A stretch of 64,000 bases of DNA, from assembly GCF_003350205.1 (NCBI RefSeq), contig NZ_QLLC01000003.1:62001-126000 (forward strand), in the 5' to 3' direction. Both the position numbers and the translations under genes were made by a program. The stretch comes from Brevundimonas bullata. Its GTDB lineage: Bacteria > Pseudomonadota > Alphaproteobacteria > Caulobacterales > Caulobacteraceae. Positions within the stretch are counted from its first letter, which is position 1, and every line of letters begins with the position of its first letter. The notes under the pieces were generated by a model, which saw only the letters and a list, made by a program, of their open reading frames with translations, was not told the DNA's origin and did not search any database. This document shows, piece by piece, positions 9,632-62,270 of this stretch.

Positions 9632-10008
9632 GCCAGACGGTCGGGCGGTCGCGGCGAGAGCTTGCTCTTGTCGAGGAAAGTCCGGGCTCCACGGTGAAGA
9701 GGCGGCGGGTAACTCCCGCCCGGGGTGACCCGAGGGATAGCGCCACAGAAAGCAAACCGCCTGGGCTCCGGCCCGGGGAAGGGTGAAAGGGTGGGGTAAG
9801 AGCCCACCGCGTCGGCGGCAACGTCGGCGGCATGGCAAGCCCCGCCTGGAGCAAGACCGAATAGGGACGTCGCGCGGGTTCGCTCGCAGGGTTCACCGCC
9901 CGAGGCGTCCGGGTAGGTCGCGAGAACCGTCCAGCAATGGGCGGTCCAGAGGAATGATCGTCGCCGCCTTTCGGGGCGGAACAGAACCCGGCTTACAGGC
10001 CGTCTGGC
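9632..10008 (+). ncRNA. rnpB: RNase P RNA, bacterial type A
   Basis: The catalytic RNA that trims tRNA 5' leaders. The universally conserved 5' block GAGGAAAGTCCGGGCTCC is at about 9674-9691, and the partner ACAGAACCCGGCTTACAG lies near the 3' end (9981-9998). The ends pair as helix P1: GCCAGACGG at 9632-9640 with CCGTCTGGC at 10000-10008. Length is about 377 nt. The GGGTGAAAGGGTGGGGTAAG segment (9780-9799) and AGGAATGATCGTCGCC near the 3' side are also characteristic. A T-run follows directly. Confidence 0.96.
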
Positions 10009-10019
10009 ATTTTTTTCTT

Positions 10020-18253: not shown

Positions 18254-19738
18254 ATGATCCCGGTTCCCGGCTTCGAGGGCAGACGCGTCGCGGTCTTCGG
18301 CCTGGGCCGGTCCGGGATCACCGCCGCGCGCGCGCTTCAGGCCGGCGGCGCCGTCCCCGTCCTGTGGGACGACGGCGTCTCGGGCCGGATGCAGGCCGAG
18401 GCGGAAGGCTTCCTCGTCGAGGACCTGACCCGCGCCGACTGGTCGGGCTTCGCCGCCCTGGTCCTGTCGCCGGGCGCGCCCCTGACCCATCCCAAGCCGC
18501 ACTGGACCGTCGAGCGCGCCCATGCAGCGGGCGTGCCGGTCATCGGCGACGTCGAGCTGTTCGCCCGCGCCCTGGACGCCCTGCCCAAGGACCAGCGCCC
18601 CCGCGTCGTCGCCATCACCGGCACCAACGGCAAGTCCACCACCACGGCCCTGATCGGCTGGGTGCTAAAATCGGCGGGCCTTAGCGTTCACATCGGCGGC
18701 AATATCGGCATCGGCGTCCTGGCCCTGCCGGCCCCGACGCCCGACGCCGTCTATGTCATCGAGGTCTCGTCCTATCAGTTGGACCTGACCACGACCTTCG
18801 CGCCCGACGTGGCCATCCTGACCAACATCAGCCCCGACCATCTGGACCGCCACGGCGGCATGGAGGGCTATGTCACGGCCAAGCAACGCATTTTTCAGGC
18901 GCAAGGGCCGGGGGCGCTGGCCCTGGTCGGCGTGGACGAGGCCTGGGGGCAGGGGATCGCGGCGGACCTGCGGGCGCAGGGAAGGCGGGTCTGCACAGTT
19001 TCCACCCTTTCCGTCATCCCGGGGCCGGACGCGCAGCGTTCGGAACCCGGGACCCAGACGGTTGCTCATGTCGCCGAGGCCTGGGTTCCGGGTTCGGCTA
19101 CGCCGCCCCGGAATGACGGCATGGAAGCCGCGCCCGGCAGGCTGAGTCTCGACGGCCAGCCCGTCGCCGACCTCTCCGCCGCCCGCTCGCTTCCCGGTCG
19201 CCACAACGCCCAGAACGCCGCCTTCGCCTACGCCGCCGCCCGCGCGCTCGGCGTGTCGCACGACGCGGCGGTCGACGGCCTGCTGACTTTCCCCGGTCTG
19301 GCGCACCGGATGGAGGCCGTCGGCCGCCTCGACGGCGTGCGCTTCATCAACGACTCCAAGGGCACCAACGCCGACGCCGCGCGTCAGGCGCTCGCCTCCT
19401 ACCCCTCCGTCTTCTGGATCGCAGGCGGCAAGGCCAAGGAGGGCGGCATCGAAGCCTTACGCGACCTTTTCCCCCACGTCGCCAAGGCCTATCTGATCGG
19501 TGAGGCCGCCGAGGCGTTTGCTGAGACCCTCGGCGACACCCCGCACATAGTCGCCCACACCATGGAGCGCGCCGTCGAAATGGCCGCCGCCGACGCCGCG
19601 AAAGCCGGGGGCGAGCAGGTGGTCCTGCTGTCGCCCGCCTGCGCCAGCTTCGACCAGTTCCCCGATTTCGAGGTGCGGGGCGAAGCCTTCCGCGCCGCCG
19701 TCCTGGCGCTGGGCGCGAAAGCGGAGCCCACCGCATGA
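18254..19738 (+). CDS. murD: UDP-MurNAc-L-alanine--D-glutamate ligase MurD, carrying an in-frame palindromic insert
   Basis: A Mur ligase adding D-Glu to UDP-MurNAc-L-Ala. The ATP loop ITGTNGKSTT (121-130), EVSSYQLD (170-177) and RFINDSKGTN are all present, so the enzyme looks functional. At 494 residues it is longer than E. coli MurD (438). Part of the excess is about 36 residues (roughly 253-289) encoded by a 109-bp imperfect palindrome (19011-19119) of the same family as intergenic repeats at 20935 and 55335. The insert falls where E. coli MurD has a variable surface loop of the central domain, before the LSL..GxHNxxNA block. The stop overlaps ftsW by 4 bp. Confidence 0.96.
   Translation: MIPVPGFEGRRVAVFGLGRSGITAARALQAGGAVPVLWDDGVSGRMQAEAEGFLVEDLTRADWSGFAALVLSPGAPLTHPKPHWTVERAHAAGVPVIGDVELFARALDALPKDQRPRVVAITGTNGKSTTTALIGWVLKSAGLSVHIGGNIGIGVLALPAPTPDAVYVIEVSSYQLDLTTTFAPDVAILTNISPDHLDRHGGMEGYVTAKQRIFQAQGPGALALVGVDEAWGQGIAADLRAQGRRVCTVSTLSVIPGPDAQRSEPGTQTVAHVAEAWVPGSATPPRNDGMEAAPGRLSLDGQPVADLSAARSLPGRHNAQNAAFAYAAARALGVSHDAAVDGLLTFPGLAHRMEAVGRLDGVRFINDSKGTNADAARQALASYPSVFWIAGGKAKEGGIEALRDLFPHVAKAYLIGEAAEAFAETLGDTPHIVAHTMERAVEMAAADAAKAGGEQVVLLSPACASFDQFPDFEVRGEAFRAAVLALGAKAEPTA
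19011..19119. repeat. Palindromic repeat, family F, inside murD and translated
   Basis: The left arm CCGTCATCCCGGGGCCGGAC through CGGAACCCGGGACCCAG pairs with the right arm CTGGGTTCCGGGTTCGGCTA through CCGGAATGACGG. Related copies with CGTCAT...ATGACG ends lie between ftsW and murG and between the response regulator and kinase genes. The murD frame stays open through it. Confidence 0.82.
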
Positions 19739-20916: not shown

Positions 20917-20934
20917 CGCGCCTTCGTCATCCCG

Positions 20935-21021
20935 GAAGCCCGAAAGGGCTATCCGGAACCGCTCCATACGCCGCGTTTGTGGCGGTCCCGGCTCTTCGCC
21001 TGCGGCTACGGCCGGGATGAC
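20935..21021. repeat. Palindromic repeat, family F, between ftsW and murG
   Basis: CGTCATCCCGGAAGCC at the left mirrors GGCCGGGATGAC at the right, enclosing further inverted blocks around GCGTTTGTGGC. It is 87 bp long and breaks an otherwise compact gene series. Confidence 0.72.
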
Positions 21022-21040
21022 TATCTGATTTGAGGTTCTC

Positions 21041-35821: not shown

Positions 35822-35880
35822 GAATCCTTACGGTTAAGGCGGAGTAACCAAACTTAAGATCCCGACTGATCGATAGAATC
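35822..35880 (-). promoter_or_regulatory. ccrM promoter region with two GANTC sites
   Basis: GAATC occurs at 35822-35826 and 35876-35880, and TTAA at 35834-35837 and 35854-35857. The TTAA pair is not at the 7-nt spacing of a full CtrA box, so only half-sites can be claimed. Paired GANTC sites before ccrM are known in Caulobacter, where methylation damps ccrM expression. Confidence 0.5.
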
Positions 35881-36027
35881 CTTCTCCCCTTGCGGGAGAA
35901 GGTGGCCGAGCAGCGCGAGGTCGGATGAGGGGTTGTGCGACGTTAAAACAGCCCGCCGTCAAACCTTGGCGAGACCCCTCATCCGTCAGGCTCCGCCTGC
36001 CACCTTCTCCCGCAAGGGGAGAAGGGA
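35880..36027. repeat. Long palindromic repeat, family D
   Basis: CCTTCTCCCCTTGCGGGAGA through AGGTGG at the left is mirrored by CCACC through TTCTCCCGCAAGGGGAGAAG at the right, with inner GATGAGGGG/CCCCTCATC. It lies between divergent ccrM and murC, and its right edge provides the purine-rich AGAAGGGAAGAAGAAG before the murC frame. A half copy (CCTTCTCCCGCAAGGGG) sits at about 3480-3496. Confidence 0.82.
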
Positions 36028-37518: not shown

Positions 37519-37530
37519 ACCATTTGCTCC

Positions 37531-37660
37531 CGCTCATCCCGGCGGACGCCGGGATCCAGTGAGAGCTTCACGACGCGCCTTTGCCGCCCTACATCGGGCA
37601 GAACGCCAAACGGCTGGATGCAGCCAAAGAACTGGATCCCGGCGTCCGCCGGGATGAGCG
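37531..37660. repeat. Palindromic repeat, family E copy 1
   Basis: CGCTCATCCCGGCGGACGCC plus GGGATCCAGT at the left is mirrored by ACTGGATCCC plus GGCGTCCGCCGGGATGAGCG at the right. It separates murC from murB. A second copy at 62137-62270 has the same arms and a related core ending GCAGCCAAAG. Confidence 0.85.
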
Positions 37661-37669
37661 GATTAACAG

Positions 37670-55334: not shown

Positions 55335-55452
55335 ACGTCATTCTCGGGCCCGTCCCGAGAATCCAGAAACACGCCGCTCGATAGTGAAGCTCGTCGCTTC
55401 GACCCGTCGAGGTCGCGGTTCTGGATCCCCGGCACAAGGCCGGGGATGACGG
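55335..55452. repeat. Palindromic repeat, family F, between response regulator and kinase genes
   Basis: ACGTCATTCTCGGGCCCGTC and GAGAATCCAGAA at the left mirror TTCTGGATCCCCGGCACAAG and GCCGGGGATGACG at the right. Same CGTCAT/ATGACG ends as the copies in murD and before murG. Confidence 0.78.
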
Positions 55453-62136: not shown

Positions 62137-62270
62137 CGCTCATCCCGGCGGACGCCGGGATCCAGTGCTTTGGGCATCATGAAGCTGAGTTGGGACTTGA
62201 TCGCTGCCGTGTTCGCCAGCCTTGCGCGTGCAGCCAAAGCACTGGGCCCCGGCGTCCGCCGGGGTGAGCG
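62137..62270. repeat. Palindromic repeat, family E copy 2
   Basis: CGCTCATCCCGGCGGACGCC and GGGATCCAGTGCTTTG at the left mirror CAAAGCACTGGGCCCC and GGCGTCCGCCGGGGTGAGCG at the right. The ATG at 62179, the best start for the following lipoprotein gene, lies inside it. Confidence 0.85.

Follow-up and report, generated by a model that had tools for sequence, protein, structure and literature searches.

Repeats of the CGTC-REP superfamily are predominantly dimeric and mostly found in alpha-proteobacteria (Di Nocera et al. 2013, PMC3733652). A unit combines a CGTC tag, for which TGTC and CCTC variants are permitted, with an 8–9-bp stem beginning with AT, a 4–5-nt loop and a CCA tail, and no dedicated transposase is described for the superfamily (PMC3733652). 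In-frame REPs within genes are already known, CGTC-REPs included (PMC3733652; RPE review PMC10969869): some dimers lie in frame inside conserved genes, and differing REPs occupy about the same recB site in two Xanthomonas species (PMC3733652). Di Nocera et al. also assigned RPE-4 and RPE-6 of Rickettsia to this superfamily; together with RPE-1, these are palindromic repeats that sit in frame in functional genes, where the extra residues are apparently tolerated (PMC3733652, PMC10969869). REPINs, which are mobilised by RAYTs, consist of two inverted REPs and a spacer and span ~100–130 bp.

The locus described here lies in the dcw cluster of Brevundimonas bullata. An initial annotation had likened a palindrome inserted in murD to the Rickettsia palindromic elements, a comparison that turned out to be apt: the insert has the tag, stem, tail and dimer layout of the CGTC-REPs and, judging from the open frame, encodes extra residues within a protein gene, as RPEs do.

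A CGTC-REP dimer within the murD reading frame

The window, i.e. the whole stretch of 64,000 nt that was analysed, belongs to a genome of 3.41 Mb in 85 contigs. Its dcw cluster shows the ordinary order murE, murF, mraY, murD, ftsW and murG (names other than murD refer to ORFs read by eye), and the murD product scores 358 bits against TIGR01087, the MurD equivalog model with a cut-off of 212. MurD is an essential enzyme. The 109-bp imperfect palindrome that had been noticed in its gene was confirmed at the same coordinates and residues (Table 1); it starts with CCGTCATCCCGG and ends with CCGGAATGACGG, and the ORF of 494 aa remains unbroken across it.

This type F insert is built from two REP units that face outward, with the CGTC tags outermost and the CCA tails turned toward the spacer. 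Both stems (ATTCCGGG / CCCGGAAC and ATCCCGGG / CCCGGGAC) are 8 bp long and begin with AT, and at stem position 1 an A stands opposite a C on the strand shown, which corresponds to a G–T wobble on the other strand. The loops, at 14 and 22 nt, exceed the usual length, which is a known exception rather than a reason for exclusion from the CGTC-REPs, as PMC3733652 gives other lengths for CGTC-1 of Bradyrhizobium. Folded as single-stranded DNA, the insert reaches −36.7 kcal/mol, whereas shuffled sequences average −26.8 (z −3.4); one shuffle in 200 equals its stability. A search for inverted repeats with exact seeds did not recover the palindrome because its arms are imperfect. Rfam gave no match at the element and thus no RNA family there; elsewhere in the window, positions 9633–10011 match RNase P RNA of bacterial class A (RF00010, 296 bits).

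The AlphaFold2 model of MurD, whose whole predicted fold matches solved MurD structures, has a mean pLDDT of 85, and the sole run below 50 covers residues 254–286. The insert is accordingly modelled as a low-confidence segment, predicted to be a disordered linker that joins two strands, with the rest of MurD looking normal, which bears out the loop location proposed at the outset; the linker is probably exposed at the surface.

Table 1. Features of murD, its insert and the related palindromes (positions within the window)
Feature	Position	Strand	Description
murD	18254..19738	+	UDP-N-acetylmuramoyl-L-alanine:D-glutamate ligase; 494 aa, single open frame
MurD beta-strand, residues 245–251	18986..19006	+	Just 5′ of the insert; DSSP on AlphaFold2 model
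Type F insert	19011..19119		CGTC-REP dimer, imperfect palindrome; in frame as MurD residues 253–289
Left REP unit	19012..19056	+	CGTC tag 19012–19015; stem 19016–19023 / 19046–19053; 22-nt loop; CCA tail 19054–19056; from sequence, by the motif definition of PMC3733652
Spacer	19057..19081		25 bp, separates both REP units; from sequence
Right REP unit, inverted	19082..19118	-	CGTC tag 19118–19115; stem 19114–19107 / 19092–19085; 14-nt loop; CCA tail 19084–19082
MurD beta-strand, residues 287–293	19112..19132	+	Overlaps and follows the insert end; DSSP on AlphaFold2 model
Degenerate palindrome	20926..21022		Intergenic, ftsW/murG; same superfamily as the murD insert, kinship judged from sequence
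CGTC-REP dimer	55335..55451		Intergenic; 7-nt loops

Repeat copies in the genome and in other genes

In other Brevundimonas species, the MurD loop also houses two further repeat types, B and A. Type B is a GCTC-tagged REP dimer with 4-nt loops, its tag lying outside the listed CGTC-REP variants, and has matches in 119 of the 131 genomes searched; type A, with CCTTCTCCCC ends, is a palindrome family unrelated to the F and B REP dimers. The expectation that related copies would exist elsewhere in the genome was borne out for all three, with 37 DNA matches for F (E ≤ 1e-3), 60 for B and 78 alignments for A, although palindromes match on both strands and the actual places are therefore fewer. Scanning the window together with 91 loci of its genome yielded 80 REP units with 8-bp stems and CCA tails, 42 of them CGTC-tagged and 30 GCTC-tagged. 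These genome-wide copies already refute, and leave a practically negligible probability to, the notion of an ordinary length-variable MurD loop whose palindrome is a chance product of high GC; long element-free loops with a fold z near 0 do occur in the genus, as this notion would have it, yet both the fold statistics and the dozens of genome matches contradict it.

The two intergenic palindromes of the window (fold z −3.6 and −4.9) had been assigned to the same family as the murD insert. Both are indeed palindromes of the same superfamily, but they do not share its subfamily. The window also holds a type A palindromic repeat at 35880–36025, which is the genome's top full-length hit for the A query (79%), and two more type B REP dimers at 37530–37661 and 62137–62269, with GCTC tags seen in the latter.

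Of 90 repeat loci inspected in the source genome, only murD and ribD are clear in-frame cases, and most copies are therefore intergenic. In ribD (C19:25910–26059, L287, minus-strand ORF), a type A repeat lies in frame in the C-terminal reductase domain (PF01872, 161 bits). Type A repeats also occur in frame near residue 220 of a ligase-associated DEXH box helicase (TIGR04121) in at least two other Brevundimonas species (L335 and L357, the former assigned by the family model), and open frames of ~880 aa elsewhere suggest more helicases with such an insert; the corresponding helicase of the source genome is empty at this site. In L348 (G114 C50), a terminase-like protein of phage-type appearance by eye, for which a family-model search gave no hit, a type A repeat precedes an 'IDPAAT' motif in frame.

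Loop states across the genus and their turnover

MurD was searched in the genomes of 131 Brevundimonas species; gene regions were fetched and the loop was extracted from 124. Following hand correction of the automatic classes in 12 rows, three species carry type F (the source genome, G035 and G092), 18 type B, 16 type A, 17 a single A-derived hairpin of 23 bp and 70 no element. The prediction that the insert would be absent from most relatives while its flanks align thus held across these 124 loops, and none of nine loops from Caulobacter, Phenylobacterium and unclassified Caulobacteraceae records contained an element. B. diminuta ATCC 11568 (L035) is among the carriers of type A, and the B. 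bullata row L032 among those of type B. B inserts are translated as ...AHPRESGDPV...NWVPAFAGMSG and A inserts contain ...PPSPARGEG, while the A-type hairpin alleles read PSPPRGEG, some of them decayed. The DNA-fold z of the loops is about −5 to −11 for A and B, about −2.5 for F and near 0 where no element is present.

Two observations from this survey stand apart. One is a MurD loop of 375–387 nt (ITTRTPPEYIDPTGG...GRFIIVDATGG and similar), which resembles repeat-bearing loops in length and lacks a palindrome signal (L127, L132–L134, L140, L141, L146, L150, L153, L156 and L211). The other is L034 (JAFKFS010000174.1), a bin titled Bordetella sp. with a dcw cluster of Brevundimonas, so that the organism name looks wrong.

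The frame is kept in 36 of the 37 full inserts, which are read through without a stop. The exception is L178 (G003 C1:2438951–2441121, from a one-contig genome that is 89% complete): its murD, with a type A element, is interrupted by a frame shift, for which an assembly indel in the homopolymer-rich element is the probable cause. Type B copies across the source genome have lengths in all three residues modulo 3 and often contain stops in the other orientation; the copies found in murD are therefore a filtered set. Removal of the insert after transcription or its skipping during translation, by an intron-like or bypass element, would account for an essential enzyme tolerating large inserts, but an open frame in 36 of 37 cases would then be unneeded and no RNA family matches the element, leaving this explanation very improbable.

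With 12 comparisons pooled, the inserts show a dN/dS of 0.64 and the remainder of MurD one of 0.13. Synonymous divergence is lower inside the inserts than outside; DNA-level constraint, homogenisation or recent exchange therefore acts as well. The repeat-derived peptide is under little amino-acid constraint, and there is no sign that the repeat acquired a role in MurD. It is possible to see in the maintained palindromic arms, the low synonymous divergence and the use of one MurD site by several repeat types a functional module—the repeat peptide or an mRNA hairpin co-opted to regulate MurD or the expression of the dcw operon. We regard this as unlikely, given that more than half of the species do without any element, that states flip between sisters, that the repeat types have unrelated spacers and encode unrelated peptides and that the segment is predicted to be disordered and evolves at the high ratio above.

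How often the loop has changed can be read from a murD tree built without it, a quick tree whose topology recombination may affect: the five loop states require at least 38 changes. Type B alone takes 17 changes for 18 rows, close to random placement, and at least 15 of these are forced by well-supported branches. Sister pairs of unlike state comprise F and B (L111/L114), A and hairpin (L118/L177), A and B (L190/L126) and B and A (L151/L144). Loop states are scattered likewise on a tree built from the adjoining mraY and ftsW region, which has fewer rows and gives approximate counts, as the B row L032 is labelled N by the motif filter. At murD, the spacers of B form nine groups at 75% identity, a cut-off above the 95th percentile (69%) between background copies, and four to five groups at looser cut-offs; with about nine groups, several captures are needed.

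At the same time, some of this turnover bears the marks of exchange. L111 and L114 are ~87–99% identical along murD with the exception of 19000–19190, L114 and L115 share a nearly identical element and flank, and the B copies of G105, G004, G046 and G085 are 86–91% alike, compared with ~78% to other copies in G105. Exchange is the best explanation for part of the similarity among the murD elements. That turnover might be due mostly to homologous recombination that moves the MurD loop laterally between species, instead of to fresh insertion, is a tentative reading with an appreciable chance of being right; the spacer groups and the distinctness of A, B and F speak against it insofar as several separate captures had to come first. 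Exchange and insertion at the loop are not mutually exclusive. The hairpin alleles point to a route of loss. Those of L173, L174, L176 and L177 are identical to one of the two terminal hairpins, left or right, that full A elements of related species carry; this fits a deletion between the two ends of an A element, the direction of change being presumed.

Taken together, it is highly probable that common intergenic palindromic repeats land in, or are exchanged into, a tolerant MurD loop, that selection retains the in-frame, stop-free copies and that the peptide is mostly a passenger. A CGTC-REP dimer, a non-coding repeat usually located between genes, would have entered a surface turn of the central domain, to be translated as ~37 disordered residues, as the open frame implies. 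Because this turn tolerates inserts, the common palindromic repeats of the genome—F, B and A—could have occupied it repeatedly across Brevundimonas. Gain may proceed by insertion or short homologous exchange, and loss or shrinkage by deletion between both terminal hairpins, which would leave 'PSPPRGEG' behind as an in-frame scar. Copies that shift the frame or bear stops would be purged by purifying selection on the essential enzyme, and the surviving peptide would be mostly passenger sequence in a permissive turn, presumably neutral for the enzyme. The earlier idea that a repeat had become part of an essential enzyme stands as far as the in-frame insert goes, its translation being deduced from the frame; it does not stand as a single event, since the site has been reoccupied with fast turnover. 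On balance, we favour the broader reading that repeats have landed in, or been exchanged into, this one loop again and again: within the genus it would many times have captured palindromic repeats of at least three types, drawn from two or more unrelated families, which were deleted to in-frame scars and continually swapped, making mobile non-coding repeats a regular source of loop sequence.

Comparison with described repeat systems

REPINs resemble the murD insert in their paired, inverted REPs and overall size. The insert lacks a GTAG tag, however, and the Y1/RAYT transposase domain PF01797 has no match in the source genome and was found in only four of 131 Brevundimonas genomes, leaving its classification as a RAYT-mobilised REPIN unsupported.

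The likeness to the CGTC-REPs of PMC3733652 is far closer, extending from the tag, the 8-bp AT-starting stem, the CCA tail and the dimeric arrangement to the mostly alpha-proteobacterial hosts. What differs are the 14–22-nt loops of F against 4–5 nt (longer ones being noted for Bradyrhizobium), the GCTC tag of the Brevundimonas B copies and the host gene, murD, with three alternating repeat types in one genus. The literature searched, in which subscription journals are mostly uncovered, contained no report of palindromic repeats in murD or of REP families in Brevundimonas; the novelty lies in an essential dcw gene as host, in unrelated repeat families alternating at one site, in the fast turnover and in the collapse scars.

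In-frame palindromic repeats have hitherto been discussed mostly as oddities of Rickettsia. Compared by description, the RPEs share with the murD insert their in-frame position and tolerated residues, whereas the Brevundimonas hosts are free-living and GC-rich, and place several repeat types at one gene site where RPEs spread one type over many genes. Brevundimonas MurD offers a natural series that is densely sampled and comes from free-living bacteria: empty loop, three full dimer types and collapsed hairpin, often between sisters. It opens the hypothesis of a neutral passenger, the route of deletion and the movement of CGTC-REPs to direct tests in a well-characterised enzyme.
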